From positions 2,046,001 to 2,110,000 of the forward strand of contig NC_019567.1 of assembly GCF_000317895.1 (NCBI RefSeq): a DNA stretch of 64,000 nucleotides. The letters run 5' to 3'. A model generated the notes under the pieces. It had not been told where the DNA came from. It saw only the letters and a list, made by a program, of their open reading frames with translations, and did not search any database. The stretch comes from Bdellovibrio bacteriovorus str. Tiberius (GTDB lineage Bacteria > Bdellovibrionota > Bdellovibrionia > Bdellovibrionales > Bdellovibrionaceae). The translations under genes and the position numbers were made by a program. Of this stretch, positions 11,574 through 24,822 are shown one piece after another (the stretch's first letter is position 1; every line of letters begins with the position of its first letter).

Positions 11574-12581
11574 CTAAGCACGGACTGCGTCTGTTCTTTG
11601 CGATTTTTCGAACAAGCGTTTTTGCAAAAGCATGTCCGAGTCGTTCAAAGCTGCGAAATTCTGGGACTGATAAGCGCCGTGAGCGCGCAAAACATCAATA
11701 ATGTGCTGGTGCATGCCCATCTTGTTTCGTGTCCACTCTGGCGCGACAAGCTCATCCCAGCGCGAAGAATACGCCGCCAGACGGTGCAAAGCCAAACGCG
11801 GGGAAAGATGCTGCAGGAACAGCTCTACACGACGTGTGTATGTGTCTTTGTCGATCGGGCTGAATTCACCCTTGTGATACATCTCTTCCAGCGGAGTGTT
11901 CTTCAGGACATGCAGGTTGTGAAGTTTCACGTTGGTGATCGGCAAGTCGTTACAGATCTTGGCCGTTTCGATGATCTGTTCATCAGTTTCCGTGGGACTT
12001 CCAAAAATCAGATGAATGCCCAGATCCACCGTCGTGGATGAAGCGATTTTGTGAATGGCCGCGATGGAATCTTCCGCGGTGTGCCCCCGGCGCATGAACT
12101 CCAGTTGGTCATTATAGAAGCTCTGCACACCCAGTTCGACGGCCACGAAGGATTTTTCGTGATATTCCTGCCACAGGTCCAAGACAGACTTTGAAAGGCA
12201 GTCCGGGCGGGTGCCCACGGTGAAGCCTTTCACCCAAGGATAAGACAGGGCCACGTCGAAATTGTTTCTAAGGGCAGACACCTTGGTGAAGGTGTTGGTG
12301 TAGGCCTGGAAGTAAATCAAAAAGGCCTTGGCGTTATATTTTTTGCTGATAATGCCGTGGTATTTTTCGATTTGCGCACGAAGCTCCATGGAAAGGCTTT
12401 CGGCGTTGGCGGCAGAACCCCAAACGTCACAGAACACGCAAGTCTGCATGCCCTTCAGGCCACGGCGGTTCGGGCAGTCGTCAACGACAGCCACCGGCAC
12501 CTTATAAACCTTTTCACCAAAGAGTTTATTGTAGTGCTCACTGATAGTATGATAGGGAACCCCTAACCAGCCTTTTTCCAT
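11574..12581 (-). CDS. YhcC-type radical SAM protein (TIGR01212 family)
   Basis: Starting from the ATG at 12581, where the family normally begins, the 335-residue protein carries the cluster motif CPNRRGLKGMQTCVFC (CX11CX2C), slightly different from the classic CX3CX2C. A YFQAYTNTF stretch, VGTRPDC and ELGVQSF are all typical of the YhcC group. The extra frame upstream overlaps the divergent gene and is not conserved in pattern. The substrate of this family is not settled. The divergent neighbour is an MnmC-like tRNA-modification protein, so a shared role in tRNA modification is possible. Confidence 0.85.
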   Translation of the reverse strand: MEKGWLGVPYHTISEHYNKLFGEKVYKVPVAVVDDCPNRRGLKGMQTCVFCDVWGSAANAESLSMELRAQIEKYHGIISKKYNAKAFLIYFQAYTNTFTKVSALRNNFDVALSYPWVKGFTVGTRPDCLSKSVLDLWQEYHEKSFVAVELGVQSFYNDQLEFMRRGHTAEDSIAAIHKIASSTTVDLGIHLIFGSPTETDEQIIETAKICNDLPITNVKLHNLHVLKNTPLEEMYHKGEFSPIDKDTYTRRVELFLQHLSPRLALHRLAAYSSRWDELVAPEWTRNKMGMHQHIIDVLRAHGAYQSQNFAALNDSDMLLQKRLFEKSQRTDAVRA

Positions 12582-12620
12582 AGGCACTTTTACAGGTTTT
12601 TTCTGCGGGAAGTCAATCAA

Positions 12621-13376
12621 ATGAAGTCTTGGGCCGATATTGGTTTTGAAATTGAGATCACGGGCGATGCAAGCCCCAGTTTGCGTCTGCTTGAGTCTAT
12701 AGACGGCGCCACCGATCGCGGCGAGACCATGCATCACTCGGGCGGAGCATGCGCTGAGACGTTGATGATCTACGGAGACCCTGCAAAACAGATCCTTCAG
12801 AAGGTGCAGAAACCTCATTTTCTAGTGGTGGGCCTGGGGCTTGGTTACATTGAACTGGTGATCGCGCGCGAAGCACTGCTTTTGGGAAAAACGTCTGCGG
12901 ATGTGGGTTTGATCACAAGTTATGAAAGTGTCCCGGAACTGCGCGAATTTTTCATTCAGTGGCTGCACGAGGATCGCACGAATCTTCATCCGGAAGTGCT
13001 GCAAACTTATGATCAGGTTTTGCAAAGTGTTTGTGGTAACACGGAGCTTGATCCGCAGGATCTTAAGTTTTTCTTGAGAAATCATTTTTCAGATGTCAGC
13101 AAAATCAGCGGAGCCCTTGATGCAGACGTTGAGCTGGTGTCGAAATATCACTGTATTTTATATGATGCTTTCAGCTCCAAGACTTCTCCGCACCTGTGGG
13201 AAGAAGAGTTCCTGAACAAGATTTTGCGCGAAGGTACAGAGCAGAAAAGTCTTCTGACTACTTATGCTTGCAAGGGGAATTTGAAGCGCGCACTGAAAGC
13301 CCAGGGTTTTGAAGTGATTCTGCGCGAAGGTTTTCAAGGGAAGCGCAACTCCACTTTGGGTCTTAAAAATATCTGA
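12621..13376 (+). CDS. MnmC-like (MnmD-type) tRNA methyltransferase
   Basis: The 251-residue protein corresponds to the stand-alone methyltransferase half of MnmC, which methylates the 5-aminomethyl group of wobble uridine in tRNA. Visible features are the SAM-binding VVGLGLGYIEL, the YDAFSSKTSPHLWEEEFL motif (DAFSPK-type in the family), the Tyr-rich LTTYACKGNLKRALKAQGF segment and GFQGKRNSTLGL at the end. The FAD-oxidase half is missing. It diverges from the radical SAM gene with about 40 bp between starts. Confidence 0.85.
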   Translation: MKSWADIGFEIEITGDASPSLRLLESIDGATDRGETMHHSGGACAETLMIYGDPAKQILQKVQKPHFLVVGLGLGYIELVIAREALLLGKTSADVGLITSYESVPELREFFIQWLHEDRTNLHPEVLQTYDQVLQSVCGNTELDPQDLKFFLRNHFSDVSKISGALDADVELVSKYHCILYDAFSSKTSPHLWEEEFLNKILREGTEQKSLLTTYACKGNLKRALKAQGFEVILREGFQGKRNSTLGLKNI

Positions 13377-14154: not shown

Positions 14155-16137
14155 TTATTCCACAGTTCCCAGGCGGATCTCGGCATCAAGGACAATGTAT
14201 AATTGCGCCTCTTCGCCCAGACTCCACTGCAAATCATAAAGTTCACTTTGGCGGGGGTATTTGGAAATCAAACCTTGCAACAATCCTTGAGCTTCCTGAC
14301 GGAAAGCACCCTGAGCGGCACGGGATTGTTTTGCCTGAGGCTTCAGGGTCTCTGCGCGGAATCGCCACAGATCCAGCTGAAAGTTTTCATAGTCATGAAG
14401 TCCTGAACCCAGGCGGGCCGAGATCGTGTTCAGACGCTCTTGAGCTTCAGCCAGATCGCTATAAGCCATGTCACGCTGGCCGTTCATAATATTTTTGGCT
14501 GCACGCAAAACCTTGATTCGCGCCCACATGAATTCGTACGGGAATTCAAAAACGCCATCTTGAGCTGCGGTCGCAGACGCTGTTTCCAGCAAGGCCAGGG
14601 TGCGATCCAGACCTGTGATCGTGCTGTGATCCTGTTCATTGGCGAGATAGGCCTTCACATAGTATTTCATAGAGTCATACCAGGCAGGTTTCGTTGGATC
14701 TTCCCACGCTTTGGTGGTTCCCAGAATTTCTACCGGAGCTTTTTGTCCCGGACCCAGCAGGCGGAAGCCGACAAAGTGTGAACGGTTGGTCGGGTAGGTT
14801 TCTGCCACACTCATCCACCACTGCATGCGGCCTGGCTGCATTACATGGGTCGCGGCGGTGTAAAGTTTCGTGGTGGTGCGACCAAAGGATCTTGCACCCA
14901 CCAGCTCGTCGCTGTGACCACTTAAGCGATTGATCACCCATTGAGCATCAATTTTTCCGAAGTCTTCATTCAGGGTGCGTTCGACATGTGTCAGACGCGC
15001 GCGGGTTTCCAGGGTTTTGTTCAGGCTGTATTCATAACCTTCCTGACTGGTTTTGCCACCCAGGAAGTGATTGCTCTGACCCAGGAATTTGTTTTGCGCG
15101 CGACGAGCCACCACCACAGTGTCGCCACTCAATTCAATGGAAGCGGATTCGTCGGTTTTGGCGTCAGAGATAAAGAACGTCCACGCTCCAAAGCCCTTGC
15201 GGGTCTGGATCATGGCAATAGCCTCATTAAGGGTGCGTGCTTTCAACAGAACAGAATGCAGCAGGTAAGGGGCGATGTCGGATTCACCACGATCATAGCG
15301 AATCTGGGTGCCCTCGGTTTGCAGTTCATGCAAGCTCACAGACAGACCGTGGTTGTTGATACCGCTGATGCCGCCGGCATAGTGCAGCCCCGCAGATCCC
15401 AGCCCCACAGACGTGGTTCCGTTTTTCTGGCGATTGATCACGATGACCTGTTCAGGTTCATAGAAACCCAGAAGGCCCGTGTCGAAGTTGCGACCATGAA
15501 CAAGGGCCCCATCCCTGGAGCTGCTAGCTGATGCACTGATCCCTGTACAACCCATTTTAATGGACCTCAAACCCTGAACCAGCAACTTAAAGGGCTTGGC
15601 CAGAGTGTTCCCGATAAAGTAAGGCGCACAGGAGGCAAAAACCTTCATGGCTCCTTTGCGGGGGCTTTCATCCATCTGTCTTTGCATGGAATCAGCAAAG
15701 ATAGAGAATTCCACCATGTAGTTGGTTTCTTCAAACGCGCTCCAGGACACCTGGCTTCCGGCATCTTCCAATCCTCGGTGCAGGTTTTTAAGGCCGGATT
15801 TAAATTCATCAGAAACGCTGGCGCGATAGTTGTCGATCACACATTTTTTAATCAACAAAAGCTGATCCTGAGACTTTTTGTCCAGGGCAGAAAAAGCACG
15901 TTCGGTTCTGACCTGAACGCCCTTCAAAACACCGGCCTCGATTTCTTTTTTCAGGAAATAGCCGTGGAAATAAGCGGTCTCGGAAAAACCACCCTTCAGA
16001 TCCAGCACGTGCACCGATTTCGAAGTGCCCGGGGCCTGACAGACAAAATGCTTTTGGCCTTGCAGTTCATTCTTAAGAACACAGTCCGCAAAGGCAGAGC
16101 CGGGAAGTAAAAGAGCCAGGATAAAAAGACGCTTCAT
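14155..16137 (-). CDS. Secreted C45-family Ntn hydrolase / acyltransferase
   Basis: After a signal peptide (MKRLFILALLLPGSAFA) and a pro-region of about 175 residues comes GCTGISASASSSRDGALVHGRNFD. C197 is in the place of the autocatalytic nucleophile of peptidase family C45 (acyl-CoA:6-aminopenicillanate acyltransferase type), with the conserved RNxD at 216-219. Members cleave or form amide bonds between acyl groups and amino compounds. The C-terminal 150 residues look helical and TPR-like. It overlaps the LysE gene by ATGA as third gene of the GH3 operon, so an acylated amino acid is a logical substrate. Confidence 0.82.
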   Translation of the reverse strand: MKRLFILALLLPGSAFADCVLKNELQGQKHFVCQAPGTSKSVHVLDLKGGFSETAYFHGYFLKKEIEAGVLKGVQVRTERAFSALDKKSQDQLLLIKKCVIDNYRASVSDEFKSGLKNLHRGLEDAGSQVSWSAFEETNYMVEFSIFADSMQRQMDESPRKGAMKVFASCAPYFIGNTLAKPFKLLVQGLRSIKMGCTGISASASSSRDGALVHGRNFDTGLLGFYEPEQVIVINRQKNGTTSVGLGSAGLHYAGGISGINNHGLSVSLHELQTEGTQIRYDRGESDIAPYLLHSVLLKARTLNEAIAMIQTRKGFGAWTFFISDAKTDESASIELSGDTVVVARRAQNKFLGQSNHFLGGKTSQEGYEYSLNKTLETRARLTHVERTLNEDFGKIDAQWVINRLSGHSDELVGARSFGRTTTKLYTAATHVMQPGRMQWWMSVAETYPTNRSHFVGFRLLGPGQKAPVEILGTTKAWEDPTKPAWYDSMKYYVKAYLANEQDHSTITGLDRTLALLETASATAAQDGVFEFPYEFMWARIKVLRAAKNIMNGQRDMAYSDLAEAQERLNTISARLGSGLHDYENFQLDLWRFRAETLKPQAKQSRAAQGAFRQEAQGLLQGLISKYPRQSELYDLQWSLGEEAQLYIVLDAEIRLGTVE

Positions 16138-16700
16138 AGGATCCCCACAGAAAGATAAATTGAAAAGCAGAAGAAACCGCAGGCGGCCACGATTTCGATT
16201 TTTCTTAAGAATTGCTTGATAGGCCCGTGCAGTCTTTTAAGCCCCCACAAAAGAGCCAGAAAGCTGACCACGAAGGTCAGAAGATACACGAGGACTCCCA
16301 GCCACAGGGATTTTGCGTCCCGCAGGTGAACGAACAGACCTGCATAGATCAAAACCAGGTGGAAGTTGGAAAGGGTCAAAGCCAGGCTCTTGGTGAATCC
16401 CTGATGTGGGATCTCAATTGTGGCAGGCTGTTCTTTGGAAAGAAGAACCTTCAAAGAGTAAGCTGACAGGACCAGAGCGGTCATCCCTGTCAATGTAATC
16501 TTAAGCCATTCCTGGTGAAACAACGGGCTTTTTAGCAGGGCCATTGCCAGAAGGATGTAGGTCACATCCCCCAGTAAAAAACCTGCAATCGAGGACCAGG
16601 GCCAGGTGCGGCGGGACACCAGACTGCGAATGATGCTGAAGCTTGCAGGCCCCAGCGCAAACGCTGATAAAAATCCCACCGAAATCATCCACAGAATCAT
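16134..16700 (-). CDS. LysE/RhtB-family amino-acid exporter
   Basis: The 188-residue protein has about six hydrophobic segments and the family start, ISVGFLSAFALGPASFSIIRSLVSR, where GP-x(5)-R replaces the more common PGP. LysE/RhtB proteins export amino acids, homoserine lactones or related small molecules. It overlaps its upstream GH3 neighbour by four bases (ATGA) and the downstream C45 gene in the same way, so the three are almost certainly one transcript with coupled translation. The exported product may be what the GH3 enzyme makes. Confidence 0.87.
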   Translation of the reverse strand: MILWMISVGFLSAFALGPASFSIIRSLVSRRTWPWSSIAGFLLGDVTYILLAMALLKSPLFHQEWLKITLTGMTALVLSAYSLKVLLSKEQPATIEIPHQGFTKSLALTLSNFHLVLIYAGLFVHLRDAKSLWLGVLVYLLTFVVSFLALLWGLKRLHGPIKQFLRKIEIVAACGFFCFSIYLSVGIL

Positions 16701-18217
16701 TGCGCAAGTCCTGTCTGTTCCAGGTTGTTGCGGATGAAGCTCAGGTATTCTTCCGCTGTTTCAAAAGTTGTTTTCATTTTGAACTGACCACGGCTGCGGT
16801 TCTTCTCGAAGTACGCCTGCAGATAATCAGCATTCATGATCTGCACCTGGGCCGGGCCCAGAACCCCCACTTCGCGGCAGTCGTGGTAGTCACCATTCAG
16901 TTTTTGCATCTGCTGATCCAGGGTCGCAGCCAGGGCTTCCATATTGATGTTTGCTTTTTCCGGAACGAACAAAGTCCAAAGATATGCGGCTTTGCCGTTG
17001 TTCAGGACCGGGGACAGGAAGAAGTGACGCAGATCCACGTTGTGAGAATTTTTGGTGTTCAAATAACAATCCAGAATTTCGTCGTCGCTGACTTTTTCCG
17101 CGGCCAGGTTCATGCCGGTGGATTTGCGACCCACGAATTCAAATACAAGATCGCCGTTATTCAGATCAAAGCTGACAACGTCTTTCATGCAATAGTGAAT
17201 CATTCCGTTGGGAGTGCCGACATTCAAATAATAAGCCACGCCCATTTCAATCTGGTGCAGGCCGATGTTCTTTTTTGGTCCATTGACCGGAGTGAAAGAG
17301 TAAATCAGGTCCGGGTTCAGGAAATAGCGCTGGCGGCCGTTTTCATATTTTTCATAGGGCAGGCCGATAGCGGCTTCCGTTGCGGCATAAACACCGTAAT
17401 AGTTCAGTTCGTGACCCACCAGACGGTCAATGCGTTCCTGGTATTGTTTGATCGGGGTGGCTGCATAGACAAAGACTTTCAGGTTCGGCCAGATTTCGTT
17501 GATGTGGGTTTTGCCGGTTTTTTGCAAAACGGCCTCAAAGATAGAAATGATATAAGTAGGGATTCCGCTCACCACTTGAATGTCCTGCTGGATGGATTCG
17601 TTAACCAGCATTTCAATCTTTTTGTCCCAGTTGGAAATAGCCAGCACCTCCCGGCAAGGGAAGGTGTTCTTGGCCAAAGCCTTTGGAACACGGGTGGACA
17701 GAATCCCGGAAATGTAACCAAATTTAAAACCATTCTGGGAATACAGATAAGGATCAGAACCAAAAGTCAGACGACCTGCTTTCAGCAGATTCAGATTCGG
17801 CTCTAACGTGGACAGTTTGCTTGCAATGCGCTTCTGGGATTTGATGAACATGCGAATCATGCGTTCGTTATAAGGAACGCGCTTGGAGTCTTTTCCGGAA
17901 GTGCCGGAAGAAAGACCAAAATAGTCCGCTTTGTCTTTAAAAAGAATGTCTTTATGGCCTGCAGCGATCATGTCGACATAGGGTGCATATTCGTCATAAC
18001 CAAACACCGGAACATGGTTTACGAACTCTTCGTAAGAGTGGATGTGGGACAGGCGCAAATCCTTATAGATGCGGGTGCCGGTCATGGAACGCTTCAGGCT
18101 GGCAAAGTTCTTTTCTTGTTTTGCCAGCATGTCTTGATGATTCACGGTCATTCTTTGACCGTATGTTTTCAGGTATTTTTGACCCAGGGACTGGACAACA
18201 TGATTCACTGCGAACAT
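16697..18217 (-). CDS. GH3-family acyl-adenylate/amide synthetase
   Basis: The 506-residue protein matches the GH3 auxin-responsive family of ANL-type adenylating enzymes. The phosphate-binding loop SSGTSGKDSKRVP spans 103-115, the second motif YGVYAATEA 274-282, and the C-terminal SRGQFKMKTT loop closes the domain. Plant members conjugate jasmonate or auxin to amino acids; bacterial members are mostly uncharacterised. The SD AAGGAG sits 7 nt before the ATG. It is first in an overlapping operon with a LysE exporter and a secreted C45 amidase/acyltransferase, and diverges from a TetR gene. Confidence 0.9.
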   Translation of the reverse strand: MFAVNHVVQSLGQKYLKTYGQRMTVNHQDMLAKQEKNFASLKRSMTGTRIYKDLRLSHIHSYEEFVNHVPVFGYDEYAPYVDMIAAGHKDILFKDKADYFGLSSGTSGKDSKRVPYNERMIRMFIKSQKRIASKLSTLEPNLNLLKAGRLTFGSDPYLYSQNGFKFGYISGILSTRVPKALAKNTFPCREVLAISNWDKKIEMLVNESIQQDIQVVSGIPTYIISIFEAVLQKTGKTHINEIWPNLKVFVYAATPIKQYQERIDRLVGHELNYYGVYAATEAAIGLPYEKYENGRQRYFLNPDLIYSFTPVNGPKKNIGLHQIEMGVAYYLNVGTPNGMIHYCMKDVVSFDLNNGDLVFEFVGRKSTGMNLAAEKVSDDEILDCYLNTKNSHNVDLRHFFLSPVLNNGKAAYLWTLFVPEKANINMEALAATLDQQMQKLNGDYHDCREVGVLGPAQVQIMNADYLQAYFEKNRSRGQFKMKTTFETAEEYLSFIRNNLEQTGLAQ

Positions 18218-18283
18218 AAAAATCTCCTTCGTTGGAATGAAGGCAATTTATTTCGATTTAAAACCTTTGTCGCTTTATGGCGT

Positions 18284-18351
18284 TGACAGGAAATGAGGGT
18301 TTTTGTCGAATTCGGCAGCTTCCATTGACAGAATTCGGGTATTTTTGTCAA
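18284..18351. promoter_or_regulatory. Duplicated operator-like unit between GH3 and TetR genes
   Basis: Two similar units start 41 bp apart: TTGACA-N14-TGTCGA (18284-18309) and TTGACA-N15-TGTCAA (18325-18351). Both contain TTTTGTC and the octamer GAATTCGG. Each is an inverted TTGACA/TGTCAA dyad, and the spacing is about four helical turns. They fill the 143-bp space between the divergent starts, as expected for autoregulatory TetR operators; the TTGACA ends could also serve as -35 elements. Confidence 0.5.
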
Positions 18352-18360
18352 AATTGCAGG

Positions 18361-18867
18361 ATGGCAACTGAATCGAAAGAAGAAATCTATTTTGCGGTCT
18401 GTAACGCTATTCTGAAGATGGAAGTGGCCAAAGGTCATTTACAGTGGACCTTGTCTGATATCTCCAGAGAATCCAACGTCACCCGGTCCTTGATTTACTA
18501 TTATTTCGGGAAGGAAAAAGACAAGGTTCTGGAAGAGGCCTATAAATTCGTTATTTCTCATATCTTCAATATGGAGCGCACTAAAACTGTCGGCATTCGC
18601 GAGCGGCTGCGCACTGTTTTGCGGGATGTGAAGAATATGCCTTATTTGTTTGTGCTTTATTATCTGGAGAAAAACGCCGGAACCCAGTTCGGCAAGATGA
18701 TCAATGAGGCGGAAGCGTTGTTGATGAAAGCGATGAAAATCGAATTCCCAACGTTAAGCGAAGTTCAGATTCTGGAGATCTATCTGAAAGAGCTTGGGGC
18801 CATCGCGTTCCAGCTGCCGCCAGAACGGGTCGATGACCTGTTTGCTGATTACATCAAAAAGAACTAA
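18361..18867 (+). CDS. TetR-family transcriptional regulator
   Basis: I chose the ATG at 18361 because TetR proteins begin a few residues before helix 1; the longer frame would add 28 residues reading through the operator region. The DNA-binding domain shows the TetR signature: WTLSDISRESNVTRSLIYYYFGKEKDKVLEEAYK. The C-terminal ligand domain is divergent. The gene diverges from the GH3 operon and converges on the RND gene, overlapping its 3' end by 4 nt. It most likely controls the GH3 operon and itself. Confidence 0.88.
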   Translation: MATESKEEIYFAVCNAILKMEVAKGHLQWTLSDISRESNVTRSLIYYYFGKEKDKVLEEAYKFVISHIFNMERTKTVGIRERLRTVLRDVKNMPYLFVLYYLEKNAGTQFGKMINEAEALLMKAMKIEFPTLSEVQILEIYLKELGAIAFQLPPERVDDLFADYIKKN

Positions 18868-21800
18868 TCCTCAGCCAGCGCTTTCGGTGTAAAGCGCGCG
18901 GCCGTCAGCCCCTGGTCGATCTTCACCTGGGCCAATCCAATAACCGTGGCTCTTTTATTCTGGACATTTTTAATGCTGATCTTGGAAGCGCGCATTTTGC
19001 CTCCAGAGACTTTTTTGTATCCAGTGAAATCCAGGGTTTTTAAAAGTTTTCCCTGTTTGTCGTAACATTCCATCTTCACGGGAACATACTCGACCGATGA
19101 AACGTAGCTGATAATTTTGGAATAGGACGAAGAGGTGGCGTTGACGTCTGATTCCACAATCAGATATTTCTTGCCGCCGATTTCAGCCTCTTTTTTGATG
19201 ACATTTTGCGCCGCCTGGTCGCGATTGAAATCAAAATCCTCGGTGGAAAGCTCAGACCCCAGGATGCCCCCTTGGCCCGATTCGCCGGTCAGTCGGCGGG
19301 TTTGTTTGGTTGAGGGCAGATAAATCCATTTGTCCTCTTGTTCACCTTTCAGGGTGGCCAGCAAGGCGGTGCCTTTTAAATCCTGCGGCTTTTGCATGCG
19401 CACCAGAAGATAGTGCTCTTTTTTTTGGGGGCTGAACCGCCAAATTTTCATTTCGCGGTCTTTGCTTGAGCCGTCGGCCTCGATGATCTTCATTTTCACG
19501 ACGAACTGTTCATCCCGGGAACGCAGGCGCTGGCTCATTTCTTCACCCAACTTTTCCGCAGTGGGAAGCTGGGCATGCGTTGGAATTGGGGCCATTGCTA
19601 CAAATAGTGTCAAAAGTATCATTGCTGTTGTTGCCATGACTTTCTCCTTTTTCCACGGTACGGGACCGAGCAACCAAGGGCAACTTTTCAGCAAAGTTGG
19701 AAGAAGAATCAAATCACCAACCAGTCCAGCGAGCATTGACAGTAGCATGTAGAAGCCAAAGATCCTGTTCATTGCAAAATAAGACGCCATAAAGACAGAG
19801 AAGCCCGCAAGCAGGGTCAGGCTTGAGATAAGACAAGGATTTCCCTCGCGCCACAGAGTGCGTTCGATCTCAAGCTCTTTGCTCTTGGACTTTTTCTGCA
19901 TGTAACGAAGCCGCTCCAGCAAATAAACTGTATTGTTAAATGCCAACCCCAGCGCGATCGAAAAGATAATGGCGACACTGGGTTTGATGGGTGTTTGTGA
20001 AATTGCCAGAAAGCCCAGTAAAGCTGCCGGCGGCACCAGATTGGGAATGCAGGCCACGATGGCCCAGCGAACAGAGCGGAAGACCACCACCAGCACCAGG
20101 GCGATTGCAATCATCGAATGCCAGAAGCCGAAAATCAGTTCTTTGGAAAGTTCATTGTTCAAGTGATGAATGGTCGAACCCATGCCTGTGACCTCGACAT
20201 TCATCTGCGGGAAAGCCGCTTTGGCCTTTTCACGAATTTGATCCACCACAGAATGCAGCTGATTGGATGGCAGATCATAGGTCCGCACTGAGATCCGCGT
20301 GTTGGCAGAATCTGTAGTCAGGAAGTTCTTAAGCGGGCTTGCGCTGCTTAAGGAATAAAGGAAAAATATTTCGGCCGTTGATGAACGGCTGGCTGGCAGG
20401 CGGGAATGGTGCAGATTGGCGGCGGCCACCAGATCCGGAAGTCCCACGACGCTGCCGACACCTTCGACAGTGCGAAGTTCAGACAACAGTTGATCCAGAC
20501 GCGCCAGTAATTTTGGTTCATTCCATGAATCTGCAGGCCCCTTGACTTCAATATCAACCGGAATCATTCCACCCAGTTCCCGATCAATGGTTTCAGTGGA
20601 CAGGCGCACCTGGTGATTCGCAGGCAGGTCATCAAACAACCGGGCGGACCAGGAAAGCCCCTGACCTTTGATCGCCAATGCTGAACACACCAGGATGATT
20701 AAAAATGCCCAGATGCCCGAGCGGCGGAACAGATACAAGCCCCAGCGTGCCTTAGCCCAGGCCCAGTCGCGGGCTTTGGGGCCTTGCATAAAATAAAGCA
20801 TAGGGAACAGGGTCATTGTCGTGACCAGCCAGCCAATCACAATGGCTCCGGCGGCGGTTACGCCATAGTCACGAATCAACGGAACCTTGGTCATCAACAG
20901 GCTTAAGAAGCCGATCATCGTGGTTGTGGAGGCAAAGAAATTGGGTCCCAGCAAAACTTTGAACGTGTAGACAACACGTTGCTGATGGGTCAGGTGTGGC
21001 TGGTTCTTTTGTTCTTCGGCGTAGCGCAGAAGTGTATGAATAATCAATGACACCACATCCACGGTGGTCAGAATCGGAATTGTTGTAGACAGGACTGAAA
21101 ACGGATATCCAGCAAGTGCCATGATGGCCAGAACAATGATGTTGGCAAATATGATGGTCACAAATGAAATAATCAAAGGGGACCAATTGGCAAATATCAA
21201 TCCCAGCACCAGAAAGCACGCCAGAAATCCCAGAACAACAAAATTACGGATCTCGGTCTGCAGCAGGACGCCCACATCGGTCTGGACGGCCGGAGTTCCG
21301 CCAATTTCAATGTGAGCAAAAGGCACAGCGGCGGTGGCCGTGACCTCCAGATTCTGGCGCAGACTGAGCAAGTCCTTCGTGTTCAGGGACTTGATGTTGA
21401 CAATAACAGAGGCCGTTTTTGCATCTTCTGAAATCAGCGTCGGCGAAATCAGGGGATTGGCCAGGGTTTCAGTCTGCCATTTTTCATGGGGAAGATTTTG
21501 CAGCAGGGGGCCGACGCTCAGGCCCTCTTTATTGTTTACAGCACCCTGTACGGTGGCCAGGCTTAAGGTGCCTTTGACGCCGGGATAATTTGCCAGCAGA
21601 TCCGTGAGGGATTTTAAACTCTGAATTTTATCGTGACTGAACCAGGTTTCGCCGTCTTCTTTGATCTTGGCGGTGACAATAAAGGGCTGGGCTTCTGAAA
21701 GCTGAAACACCTGTTTAGTATGTTCATCTCTTTGTAGCAGCGGATTATCCACTGGCAAAAATTGCTTTAAACTGTACTGCGTTTGTAAACCAGGCAGAGC

Positions 21801-21905
21801 GAACAGACCAAGGACAGAGGCCAGAAAAACAAAAAGAAGGGTAGAAATGCAGACTGTTTTGACGGAAACTTTTGAAAATATTTTGGCGATTGTCGTATTT
21901 ATCAT
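18864..21905 (-). CDS. RND (MMPL) transporter fused to LolA-like lipoprotein-sorting domain
   Basis: Residues 1-750 form an RND/MMPL exporter with two six-helix bundles and two periplasmic loops (the second bundle starts near FGFWHSMIAIALVLVVVF). Residues 757-1013 begin with MATTAMILLTLFVAMAPIPTHAQ-like sequence, a signal peptide in appearance, and continue as an outer-membrane lipoprotein-sorting (LolA-like) beta domain with DREMKIWRFSPQKKEHYLLVRM and KWIYLPSTKQTRRL. In other bacteria these are two neighbouring genes. An SD (AAAGGAG) precedes the in-frame internal ATG at 19637, so the second part may also be made alone. Confidence 0.88.
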   Translation of the reverse strand: MINTTIAKIFSKVSVKTVCISTLLFVFLASVLGLFALPGLQTQYSLKQFLPVDNPLLQRDEHTKQVFQLSEAQPFIVTAKIKEDGETWFSHDKIQSLKSLTDLLANYPGVKGTLSLATVQGAVNNKEGLSVGPLLQNLPHEKWQTETLANPLISPTLISEDAKTASVIVNIKSLNTKDLLSLRQNLEVTATAAVPFAHIEIGGTPAVQTDVGVLLQTEIRNFVVLGFLACFLVLGLIFANWSPLIISFVTIIFANIIVLAIMALAGYPFSVLSTTIPILTTVDVVSLIIHTLLRYAEEQKNQPHLTHQQRVVYTFKVLLGPNFFASTTTMIGFLSLLMTKVPLIRDYGVTAAGAIVIGWLVTTMTLFPMLYFMQGPKARDWAWAKARWGLYLFRRSGIWAFLIILVCSALAIKGQGLSWSARLFDDLPANHQVRLSTETIDRELGGMIPVDIEVKGPADSWNEPKLLARLDQLLSELRTVEGVGSVVGLPDLVAAANLHHSRLPASRSSTAEIFFLYSLSSASPLKNFLTTDSANTRISVRTYDLPSNQLHSVVDQIREKAKAAFPQMNVEVTGMGSTIHHLNNELSKELIFGFWHSMIAIALVLVVVFRSVRWAIVACIPNLVPPAALLGFLAISQTPIKPSVAIIFSIALGLAFNNTVYLLERLRYMQKKSKSKELEIERTLWREGNPCLISSLTLLAGFSVFMASYFAMNRIFGFYMLLSMLAGLVGDLILLPTLLKSCPWLLGPVPWKKEKVMATTAMILLTLFVAMAPIPTHAQLPTAEKLGEEMSQRLRSRDEQFVVKMKIIEADGSSKDREMKIWRFSPQKKEHYLLVRMQKPQDLKGTALLATLKGEQEDKWIYLPSTKQTRRLTGESGQGGILGSELSTEDFDFNRDQAAQNVIKKEAEIGGKKYLIVESDVNATSSSYSKIISYVSSVEYVPVKMECYDKQGKLLKTLDFTGYKKVSGGKMRASKISIKNVQNKRATVIGLAQVKIDQGLTAARFTPKALAED
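19632..19652 (-). promoter_or_regulatory. Internal Shine-Dalgarno and start codon within the RND-LolA gene
   Basis: Read on the minus strand, AAAAAGGAGAAAGTC leads to ATG at 19637-19635, in frame with the long reading frame. The next 22 codons form a classic signal peptide ending THA. This suggests independent translation of a 257-residue secreted LolA-like protein. Confidence 0.6.
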
Positions 21906-22010
21906 TGGAATGTCTTCTTTCGATTCTGCTTAAAAAAGTTCCTTTAGATTTTTCAGTTGAAGCCGTAACTTAGAAACATGATGTCTGACATGATGAGGAA
22001 ACGAAGTTCT

Positions 22011-23510
22011 ATGATGACAACAAAACTATCGGCCACGCTACTCACATTCTTAATAACTGTACCTGCATTTTCCAAAACAGTTGTGGAATCAGAGTTCGAA
22101 CTGAAACTACCTAGACAATTCCAACAAAGTTTAATTGAAGAAAAGTGGAAAACACTCACGACTCGCGAGTTCACCGCAAACTGGCAATTTCCTGATCAGC
22201 AGGTTGTAAGTCAGGAAATCCCAGTCCACATTAAAGGCATTTCAATTGATATTAAGTCCCGCCTTGAAAAGCCCGCCCTGAGCGGTTCTCAGAGCGCCCT
22301 GGAGCTTTCATCCAAAGGTCTGGCGGCAGAACTCAAGATTGCAGAGGTCATGGTTGATCATCTGGTGGAGCGCAATGTGGGTGGCATTATCGGCCGTTTT
22401 CGCGTTCAGGCTCAGTGTAAGGATATTGTGCTGAATTTGAAATCCGGTGAAGGTCAGTTTGCAATGAAAGTGACTCCGAACGTGGGAAGCACACAAGCGG
22501 GCGCCAATGTTGATTCTGTGGCTCTGTCCTGGAATCCGGGCGCGTGGGTTGTGGCCGGCAATGTGCAATGTTCAGGGGCTGAAGGGTTCTCGGACATCTT
22601 GATGAACGAAGTCACTAAAATCACAAATGACTCGGCCAGCTTCGTGGAACCGCAAAAAGAACTTATTAAAAGCTATGTTCAAAAATATCTGGAAGGGGTG
22701 ACCTTTGATTTCTCCGGCAGCCGCAAACTTGTTGTGGCCCGCCCGGATATTGAAGTCACAATGTCGGTTCAGAGTTTTCAGGATCTGGGCACAGAGGGCT
22801 TGCTGGCCAAAGGAACTTTGGCCGTGTCCTTCACTCGTGTCGCAGAGGATTCCAAAAAAGTTTTGAAACTGGATGAAGGTTCCGCGGTGTCTTCAAGCTC
22901 GGCATCTTTGCGTCTGCCGAAGGACTTTATCAATGTGGTTTTAAGTGAGGCTTATAAAGGTAATACCTGGCTGCATCAGATCAGTTCCAGCAAACTTCCG
23001 GGTTTTTCGACGATCATGAATTCCCGCTTTGTTCAGCTGTTTATCTGGCCTGAGCTGATGAACTATTCCAAGTCAGCCAAATTCCTGTTTGATCTTTATT
23101 CAGACAAGGATGTGCAAATCACCGGAAAAGGTTTGCAGTATTCTGTGAAAACAACCATGTATGCGAAAATGCAGGCCCCAAAATCCGGATCTTATATTTC
23201 GTTTATGAACTTCACTTTGCCATTCAATTCCAAAGTGACTTTGAAACTGGATGACGGAAAGGTGCAGGCAAAGTTTGTGAACCCGACTTTGGGAATGACG
23301 GGGGTCTATGATTCGACTTATATTTCCCGTTACAGTCCTTCGCGCCGCTTTAAGTCTGCCACCATCCGGGATCGTATTATTGATTCCCTGTGGGGGCAGT
23401 CGGTCAGCATGACTTTGCCGGATATCCCTGTGGCAGAAGGTTTGTCCTTGCAGGTCAACAAGCTGCTGACGACGGAATCTTCGGATTTGGTATTGCAGCT
23501 GACTCCGTAA
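22011..23510 (+). CDS. Secreted protein of unknown function next to the RND system
   Basis: The ATG at 22011 is preferred, with GAGGAA ten bases upstream, and gives a short signal peptide ending in VPAFS. Three Met codons further upstream are less likely. The roughly 490-residue mature protein is rich in beta-strand-like alternation with a central helical part and one Cys pair (QCKD, VQCSG). I recognise no family, but the size and pattern would suit a lipid-binding or barrel-associated periplasmic protein. It diverges from the RND-LolA gene and converges on the barrel gene with a 1-nt gap, so it may belong to the same envelope pathway. Confidence 0.75.
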   Translation: MMTTKLSATLLTFLITVPAFSKTVVESEFELKLPRQFQQSLIEEKWKTLTTREFTANWQFPDQQVVSQEIPVHIKGISIDIKSRLEKPALSGSQSALELSSKGLAAELKIAEVMVDHLVERNVGGIIGRFRVQAQCKDIVLNLKSGEGQFAMKVTPNVGSTQAGANVDSVALSWNPGAWVVAGNVQCSGAEGFSDILMNEVTKITNDSASFVEPQKELIKSYVQKYLEGVTFDFSGSRKLVVARPDIEVTMSVQSFQDLGTEGLLAKGTLAVSFTRVAEDSKKVLKLDEGSAVSSSSASLRLPKDFINVVLSEAYKGNTWLHQISSSKLPGFSTIMNSRFVQLFIWPELMNYSKSAKFLFDLYSDKDVQITGKGLQYSVKTTMYAKMQAPKSGSYISFMNFTLPFNSKVTLKLDDGKVQAKFVNPTLGMTGVYDSTYISRYSPSRRFKSATIRDRIIDSLWGQSVSMTLPDIPVAEGLSLQVNKLLTTESSDLVLQLTP

Positions 23511-23511
23511 A

Positions 23512-24822
23512 TCAGAAAGAACGGCTTAAGGACAACGAATAAGAGTCGTTTTTTCCATAAACTCCCAAAGGAGTGTCGGCGGATCCCTGAATAAGGTCCG
23601 CCGTAATCGTCAACACCCACGCATCAAAAAAACGGCGGCTCAGCGAATACTGCTGATAAGTGCTTCCGTGGACGCTGTCATACAGTCCCAGCAAATTAAA
23701 TCCCCAGACTTCTTTCCATGTCAGGCGGCCCCCGGCCATATAGGCACTGCGGAAGATTTCCGTAATAGACAGATTGGAGTCATTCTTCTTTTCCGTGTTC
23801 ACGAAAGAGTATTGAAGAATACCGATCAACAGACCGCTTTCACCCAGATTGAAGGTCTTCTCAAGACCCAGCACATTTTCATTCGTCCATTTTTGCAGAG
23901 CCGGGTTGTCTTCCAGGCTTTGAGTATAGCTGCCAACAGTTTTAAAAAGCATGTTCCACTGATTCATCACAAAAGAAAGTCCCCCCTGACGAATGCGATA
24001 GTTATAGGTGTTTAAAAGAACATCCGGATCGACATCAATCACAGTTTTGGGTGAAACCTGTACGATGGTTCCGGTCACCACCGGCTCCACAAAGGGAAAG
24101 CTGGCAGCCCCCTCGTATCCCGTCAGGGCCACATCGATAAATTCACCTCTGCGCTGCAGGCGAAAGGCATAATTGTTGTCCAGGGCATTTCCCAGGCTCT
24201 GTCTTGAAGAATAATCATAACGCAGATTTTCGGGAAGATTCAGCACCAGATCGTTGTCGGCAGTCTGGGGCACGAAGATCTCCCGTGGCAGCCAGCGGCT
24301 TTCTGTGCCCGGCAGAAGTGATCCGCGATTCTGTGGGATATAGATCAGCTCCAGCTCCCAGCTTCCCATGGTTTGGGAATATGAAAGTGACAGCGCGCCC
24401 AGTTTTCGGCTGCGTAAGGGATCGAAATACTGTTTCGAGTTCACGATATCCACCGGGTTGTAGCCATCGGTCACACCCCAGGTGAAAAGATTGTATCCCG
24501 CCTGCAGGGAAGAGCTTTCCGTCTGGTAGCGGAGGTAGGCTTCGGAGGGATCAAAGAAATAGCGTTCTTCTTCAGAGTTGTTGTTCGGGGTGGCGACAAA
24601 AACGGGGCGCACGAAAAAACGCCAGGACTCAAGATACTTCCAGCGGTAAATCGGAATCAGTTCCAGACCATAAAGTTCCGAGTTGGTGTCTTCACCGTAT
24701 TCTTCCGGGAAGGCTGTGGCCTCAAGCTTTGAATCCAAATGCAGGCTCCACTCTGTTTTGCGGGCGGCAAACACAGAGCCGGGCAGAATGATAATCACAA
24801 GAAAGGGAAGCAGCCACGACAT
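23512..24822 (-). CDS. Outer-membrane beta-barrel protein (DUF1302-like)
   Basis: A signal peptide (ends GSVFAA) is followed by about 415 residues of alternating polar/aromatic strands and the C-terminal LSLSRSF, the terminal Phe recognised by the BAM machinery. Segments such as LQAGYNLFTWGVTDGYNPVDIVN resemble DUF1302 barrels, which often accompany RND transporters with LolA-like partners. With the RND-LolA fusion and the adjacent secreted protein it could form a trans-envelope lipid or lipoprotein export route. It is the only gene on its strand here, read towards the RND gene. Confidence 0.8.
   Translation of the reverse strand: MSWLLPFLVIIILPGSVFAARKTEWSLHLDSKLEATAFPEEYGEDTNSELYGLELIPIYRWKYLESWRFFVRPVFVATPNNNSEEERYFFDPSEAYLRYQTESSSLQAGYNLFTWGVTDGYNPVDIVNSKQYFDPLRSRKLGALSLSYSQTMGSWELELIYIPQNRGSLLPGTESRWLPREIFVPQTADNDLVLNLPENLRYDYSSRQSLGNALDNNYAFRLQRRGEFIDVALTGYEGAASFPFVEPVVTGTIVQVSPKTVIDVDPDVLLNTYNYRIRQGGLSFVMNQWNMLFKTVGSYTQSLEDNPALQKWTNENVLGLEKTFNLGESGLLIGILQYSFVNTEKKNDSNLSITEIFRSAYMAGGRLTWKEVWGFNLLGLYDSVHGSTYQQYSLSRRFFDAWVLTITADLIQGSADTPLGVYGKNDSYSLSLSRSF

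Follow-up and report, generated by a model that had tools for sequence, protein, structure and literature searches.

A conserved TetR–GH3–LysE–C45 gene unit in Bdellovibrio bacteriovorus str. Tiberius that may make, export and process an N-acyl amino acid

The window analyzed in this study, a stretch of 64,000 bases (bases 2046001-2110000 of the single-contig 3.99 Mb genome of Bdellovibrio bacteriovorus str. Tiberius), contains three consecutive genes encoding a GH3-family acyl acid amido synthetase, a LysE-like membrane permease, and a secreted C45-type N-terminal nucleophile (Ntn) proenzyme, next to a divergently oriented TetR regulator gene (Table 1). The open reading frame (ORF) coordinates bear out the original prediction that the three genes overlap by ATGA at both junctions, and the 4-bp overlaps GH3/LysE and LysE/C45 read TCAT on the plus strand at 16697-16700 and 16134-16137, respectively. 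That prediction described a three-gene unit. The trio is real, but the divergent TetR gene and its operators, which had been overlooked, also belong to it: as judged from genome comparisons, TetR, GH3, LysE, and C45 are one conserved four-gene unit with shared operator-like sites.

Table 1. Features of the GH3 unit (positions refer to the window)
Feature	Position	Strand	Remarks
GH3-family acyl acid amido synthetase	16697..18217	-	506 aa; no signal peptide; profiles, motifs, AlphaFold model
LysE-like membrane permease	16134..16700	-	188 aa; profile matches of relatives
Secreted C45-type Ntn proenzyme (predicted)	14155..16137	-	660 aa; profile matches
Divergent TetR regulator	18361..18867	+	168 aa; comparative genomics
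Proposed TetR operator 1	18283..18310	.	TTCGACA-N15-TGTCAA as read on minus strand
Proposed TetR operator 2	18325..18352	.	TTTGACA-N15-TGTCAA as read on minus strand

The GH3 protein matches the N-terminal model PF03321 with 93 bits and GH3_C with 32.1 bits (cut-off 23.6 for both), and its GH3_M score of 21.4 bits lies slightly under the same cut-off. Nucleotide motifs I (SSGTSGKDSK, residues 103-112), II (YAATE, 277-281), and III (around HYCMKD, 341-346) align in the window protein and its relatives, and a C-terminal GQFKMK is present. An AlphaFold model from 24 sequences reached a predicted local distance difference test (pLDDT) score of 85.3, and its best PDB matches were plant GH3 enzymes, with E down to 1.1e-24 and a TMq of 0.79 for AtGH3.15. 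ATP-dependent amide formation is the activity that family membership predicts. The sole NCBIfam match was NF052613, the model of the lyso-ornithine lipid synthetase OlsH, a model that all 24 GH3 proteins tested also match; with 183.6 bits, well below the equivalog cut-off of 620, the window protein is no more than a distant relative of OlsH.

LysE translocators have about 5-6 membrane helices and a GP motif in helix 1. The permease encoded here shows five strong hydrophobic segments, and G9, G17, P18, and N112 are invariant among 19 aligned proteins. It is the sole PF01810 match in the entire genome; 15 of the 19 aligned relatives match this model at E<=0.01 (best 2.8e-32), and the proteins of L131 (39.3 bits) and L140 (28.3 bits) exceed its cut-off.

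The C45 protein exceeds the cut-offs of NF040521 (99.9 bits, cut-off 85) and PF03417 (32.7 bits, cut-off 23.2), and all 13 aligned members match NF040521 at E<=0.001. Its N-terminus, MKRLFILALLLPGSAFA-D, resembles a signal peptide as judged by eye. Self-cleavage is predicted at Gly196|Cys197, with the Cys197 codon at 15549-15547, and the catalytic Cys, RN[FL], and the Asn of QxN are conserved in 19/19 aligned proteins. Unit-linked C45 proteins read RN[FL]D, and three without an adjacent GH3 (L143, L145, and L146) read RNLE, which fits a different task, seen in these three sequences only; the C45 of L039, likewise without an adjacent GH3 orthologue, has D after RN[FL].

Among 24 genomes of the same genus, drawn from 59 searched, GH3, LysE, and C45 orthologues are all present in 14 and all absent in 10, two of which (G011 and G022) hold a remote GH3-type match (E about 1e-9 to 1e-10). 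The order TetR, GH3, LysE, C45 is retained in 13 of the 14 unit-bearing genomes. In the window the unit is flanked by an SBP and an MMPL gene, which lie 1-26 bases apart by match coordinates in four unit-lacking genomes (G009, G007, G019, and G004), and this junction is the empty site. About 645 bases separate the two genes in G014; for the other five lacking genomes, SBP and/or MMPL were not found within the stretch fetched. The four genes sit together in different surroundings in G010 and in G033, a member of another genus. In a tree of nrdA, G010 is placed among unit-lacking genomes despite a GH3 that is 86% identical to that of the window, which suggests that the whole unit was transferred. 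At least three gains or losses explain the presence and absence in the genus on this one-gene tree, in which many forks are weakly supported and G013 was left out.

The linkage extends across the phylum. With matches of at least 300 bits, a threshold set after the score lists were inspected, GH3 was identified in 31 of 368 phylum genomes, C45 in 33, and both in 27, a coincidence with a Fisher probability of 5e-31, uncorrected for relatedness. Of these 27 genomes, 25 have GH3 next to C45, the exceptions being G016 (genes scattered) and G363 (genes on different contigs). A LysE-like protein occurs in 26 of the 27: 22 have it as a separate gene between GH3 and C45, G335 as a fusion with C45, G359 and G363 adjoining GH3, and G016 elsewhere. 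ORFs of some phylum loci, and of some loci outside it, come from a greedy ORF picker that may hide short genes. The search of other genomes thus excludes the refutation attached to the original prediction, namely that the trio never co-occurs elsewhere.

In G335, the 811-aa fusion protein (L138) contains the full LysE model at 2-177 followed by the C45 model at 187-716; its C45 part lacks a signal peptide, and its gene overlaps GH3 by ATGA. LysE and C45 can therefore form one protein, in a single case from a single genome. The C-terminus of the Corynebacterium LysE lies on the outside, and a fused C45 would thus be periplasmic.

Several genomes give GH3 other partners. In L038 (9791-11692) and L148 (8083-9984), from two genomes that have GH3 without a strong C45, GH3 adjoins a gene for a 633-aa ketoacyl-synthase-III-like plus haem-oxygenase-2-like protein. 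In G089 and G091, a gene for an MMPL-type transporter overlaps GH3 (L149:3805-6141 and L221:3496-5826) and perhaps replaces LysE; Pfam was run for L149 only, and the label in G091 follows from position and length.

The start of TetR was set at ATG 18361 by comparison of orthologues (the longest ORF begins at 18277), and 13 aligned proteins share the nearly invariant stretch TRSLIYYY.GK. The gap between TetR and GH3 holds two 28-bp palindromes, TTYGACA-N15-TGTCAA, to which TetR presumably binds. An exact search of 36 genomes found two sites in total in the window genome, both upstream of GH3. The exact operator is present in 14/14 unit-bearing genomes of the genus and in one of the 10 lacking the unit (G003); a reversed control pattern gave six hits over all 36 genomes. 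With up to one mismatch, 10 of the 13 phylum loci L130-L142 have the operator ahead of GH3 or, in L140, ahead of C45; it was not found in L138, L141, and L142, and 236,757 control bases gave zero hits. Where the genes are spread over three contigs (G016), an exact operator precedes LysE and two one-mismatch operators, 41 bases apart, precede C45. A further exact search for regulon members in a second set of 19 genomes returned five off-unit sites in five genomes against seven reversed-pattern hits, so that only the site in G057 was taken as meaningful; there, in a genome without a strong C45 or LysE match, the operator lies ahead of a TetR homologue (L206). An exact operator in G360 lies between genes for an alpha/beta hydrolase and a PlsC-like acyltransferase (L209:1501-1528), and it may reflect chance or a second acylation step. 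An operator-like site in G060 (L200:1501-1528), matching on both strands, has no TetR or unit gene nearby.

These data bear on the view that three unrelated genes merely share an operon, which we consider highly improbable. Gene order around the unit (nrdAB, MMPL) is conserved too, as expected of mere neighbours, but the block occurs in other places in G010 and G033, SBP and MMPL meet at an empty site in unit-lacking genomes, the operator is kept when the genes are scattered, and a partial fusion exists in G335. The chance explanation is already contradicted, and co-occurrence, co-regulation, and fusion place the grouping of GH3, LysE, and C45 beyond chance.

The regulatory data also bear on a role in detoxification or turnover, in which an aromatic or fatty acid from prey or medium would lift TetR repression, GH3 would conjugate it, LysE would expel the conjugate, and C45 would recover the amino acid outside. 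Operators confined to the GH3 unit in the window genome, the patchy distribution, and the likely arrival of the entire unit in G010 by transfer are consistent with such a role. We nevertheless regard it as improbable, given the fatty-acid chemistry of OlsH, an assayed bacterial relative, and given that no toxic acid is pointed to.

Part of the unit is found outside the phylum. A GH3 alignment search yielded 28 loci, of which 23 (L048-L070) lie outside Bdellovibrio; their titles place 22 in Bacteroidota groups and one in Gracilibacteria. Seventeen of the 23 have a LysE-like gene directly after GH3 in the same orientation, and in L056 it is 6.7 kb off. Twelve outside loci have a common upstream neighbour, which we take to be YggS, and the GH3-LysE adjacency is therefore in part inherited gene order; this neighbour is missing in six of the 17 loci (L051, which starts at a contig end, L052, L058, L059, L062, and L064). 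Because these 17 pairs occur without any C45, GH3-LysE appears to be the older core, with C45 added in Bdellovibrionota.

Taken together, we think it rather probable that the unit serves as a make-export-process pathway dedicated to an N-acyl amino acid. In the cytoplasm, GH3 would use ATP to activate a free acid, fatty or otherwise, and attach it to an amino acid at the amino group of the latter, and the LysE-like permease would move the conjugate across the inner membrane to the periplasm. There, C45 would cleave itself before Cys197 and attack the amide made by GH3, either hydrolyzing it or handing the acyl chain to another acceptor. TetR, on the two palindromes before GH3, would repress the unit until an inducer appears, for which the acid or the conjugate is the probable candidate. 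Amides of the N-acyl amino acid kind are substrates of C45 enzymes, and synthesis inside, export by LysE, and action of C45 in the periplasm would be the simplest order of events. The original prediction that an acyl-amino-acid conjugate is made, exported, and processed outside holds as far as the linkage is concerned, through strict co-occurrence, phylum-wide clusters, the LysE-C45 fusion, operators kept on scattered genes, and GH3-LysE in another phylum; its chemistry is deduced from the families of GH3, LysE, and C45.

Several observations weigh against this pathway. None of the 23 GH3 loci from outside Bdellovibrio contains a C45 match, a LysE-like protein was not seen in one of the 27 phylum genomes (G360), and within the phylum a strong GH3 occurs without a strong C45 in 4/31 genomes (G057, G246, G089, and G091) and a strong C45 without a strong GH3 in 6/33. 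The phyletic counts are uncorrected for relatedness, and the 24 genus genomes are not 24 independent tests, since about three gains or losses suffice. At 24.6 bits, the window permease falls narrowly under the PF01810 cut-off of 25.6, hence the name "LysE-like," and free amino acids are the more familiar cargo of LysE proteins. The C45 model, from five sequences, is poor (pLDDT 53.9), so the fold assignment relies on profile matches, and a PDB sequence search with C45 gave no useful match (best E 0.64, an unrelated protein). The OlsH score also means that the substrates of OlsH are not transferable to the window GH3.

More speculatively, and with little probability in our estimate, the unit could transfer acyl groups in the periplasm independently of coenzyme A and acyl carrier protein: GH3 would store the energy of ATP in an N-acyl amino acid fit for export, a LysE-type permease would have turned into the lipid-conjugate exporter that delivers it, and C45 would use the conjugate as acyl donor on a target in the predator envelope or prey periplasm. 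If so, GH3-LysE would be a general N-acyl amino acid export pair of two phyla, extended by the C45 step in Bdellovibrionota.

The genes surrounding the unit were also considered. MMPL-LolA (18864-21905), the SBP gene, and nrdAB were rejected as unit members, as the four genes sit elsewhere without them in G010 and G033; SBP and MMPL, moreover, persist in several unit-lacking genomes. The single ORF at 18864-21905 combines an MMPL (HAE3-type) transporter with a LolA-like lipoprotein-sorting domain and forms a conserved block with its neighbours 21978-23510 and 23512-24822, both without a Pfam match; this MMPL-LolA block is retained in several genomes without the GH3 unit. A radical SAM ORF (11574-12818, minus strand) and a methyltransferase ORF (12621-13376, plus strand) overlap by about 200 bases (12621-12818), and one of the called starts is probably too long. 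Passages of a proteome study identify Bd1983 and Bd1984 of strain HD100 as nrdB and nrdA, and these passages do not mention the GH3 unit, which lies a few genes beyond nrdAB (PMC12546842).

A different product would result if the unit served membrane aminolipid synthesis, with GH3 making a lyso-aminolipid like OlsH, LysE flipping it, and C45 or another acyltransferase adding a second chain or remodelling it, so that an envelope lipid would be formed and not released. We consider this doubtful: C45 families act on amides, not esters, and the window genome has elsewhere (C1:348262) an ORF matching PF13444 with 99.4 bits, presumably of the OlsB/OlsF type. As this is probably the genome's own ornithine lipid enzyme, ornithine lipid is less likely as the end product, and the OlsH authors argue for a separate ornithine lipid enzyme in Bacteroidota likewise (PMC12493201, in part). 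The match of every tested GH3 to OlsH, which starts ornithine lipid synthesis (PMC12493201), speaks for an aminolipid, as do the MMPL-type transporters abutting GH3 in G089 and G091 and the extra operator of G360 between protein types of the OlsI and OlsA routes of O-acylation, but such extra operator hits are no more frequent than the reversed control.

With respect to the make-export-process pathway, OlsH is a bacterial GH3 with described chemistry, joining free fatty acid and ornithine to N-acyl ornithine with ATP and Mg, according to passages of the paper on the OlsH/OlsI pathway of Singulisphaera acidiphila (PMC12493201). Both systems have a bacterial GH3 with three recognizable nucleotide motifs. 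Their partners differ, being an N-methyltransferase and an alpha/beta hydrolase in the OlsH/OlsI system as described there (PMC12493201), and LysE, C45, and TetR at the window locus, where no operon with an OlsI-type hydrolase is found. Neither "LysE" nor "Bdellovibrio" appears in the main text of that paper. Its authors, in the part concerned, urge work on bacterial GH3 proteins, which are widespread and whose products are mostly unknown (PMC12493201). Through the unit, GH3 gains candidate partners, namely an exporter in two phyla, a second enzyme, and a regulator whose site is defined, so that product, transport, and role become testable in a culturable Bdellovibrio.

Plant GH3 enzymes (AtGH3.12, AtGH3.15, JAR1) resemble the window protein in fold (TMq up to 0.79) and nucleotide motifs, with about 14-18% identity in the structural alignment, but they use plant hormones as acids and are not known to have an exporter or C45 partner. 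Isopenicillin N acyltransferase and other C45 family members share the profile match, the proenzyme-type cleavage site GC[TL]G, and RN[FL]D; the window C45 differs in its length (660 aa), its long helical C-terminal part, its predicted secretion, and its link to GH3. Among the titles listed in literature searches on Bdellovibrio lipids, GH3, LysE, and C45, two of which listed 15 of 56 and 10 of 166 matches, no paper described a GH3-LysE or GH3-C45 unit. In passages of two further papers, "GH3" denotes a glycoside hydrolase (PMC12724312) and "lyse" is the verb (PMC12856293), neither being relevant here. The parts are known, and the combination and its probable chemistry are likely new.

The closest functional parallel of the unit appears to be the step of pyoverdine synthesis catalyzed by PvdQ, which belongs to a different Ntn family than C45. 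As described in parts of the literature on this siderophore, an acylated precursor is exported, most likely by PvdE, and deacylated by the Ntn hydrolase PvdQ (PMC6206403). The PvdL-PvdE-PvdQ route (PMC6206403) thus combines cytoplasmic fatty N-acylation, export, and a periplasmic Ntn amidase, steps that on the window side are predicted from the genes; it differs in using a nonribosomal peptide synthetase rather than GH3, an ABC transporter rather than LysE, and a large peptide cargo, and the two systems are non-homologous. The acyl chain of the Bdellovibrio product might likewise be a handle, with an amino compound acylated inside, exported, and freed by periplasmic C45, a possibility to which we give limited but appreciable weight. 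The same order of events in pyoverdine synthesis (PMC6206403) and the LysE-C45 fusion, which would place cleavage at the exit, favour such an export tag, but the conserved unit holds no other biosynthetic gene for a special amine, and in the Bacteroidota pairs, which lack C45, the acylated form is presumably the product. For the make-export-process pathway that we prefer, the gene content and the LysE-C45 fusion would fit a PvdQ-type scheme of acylation, export, and deacylation.

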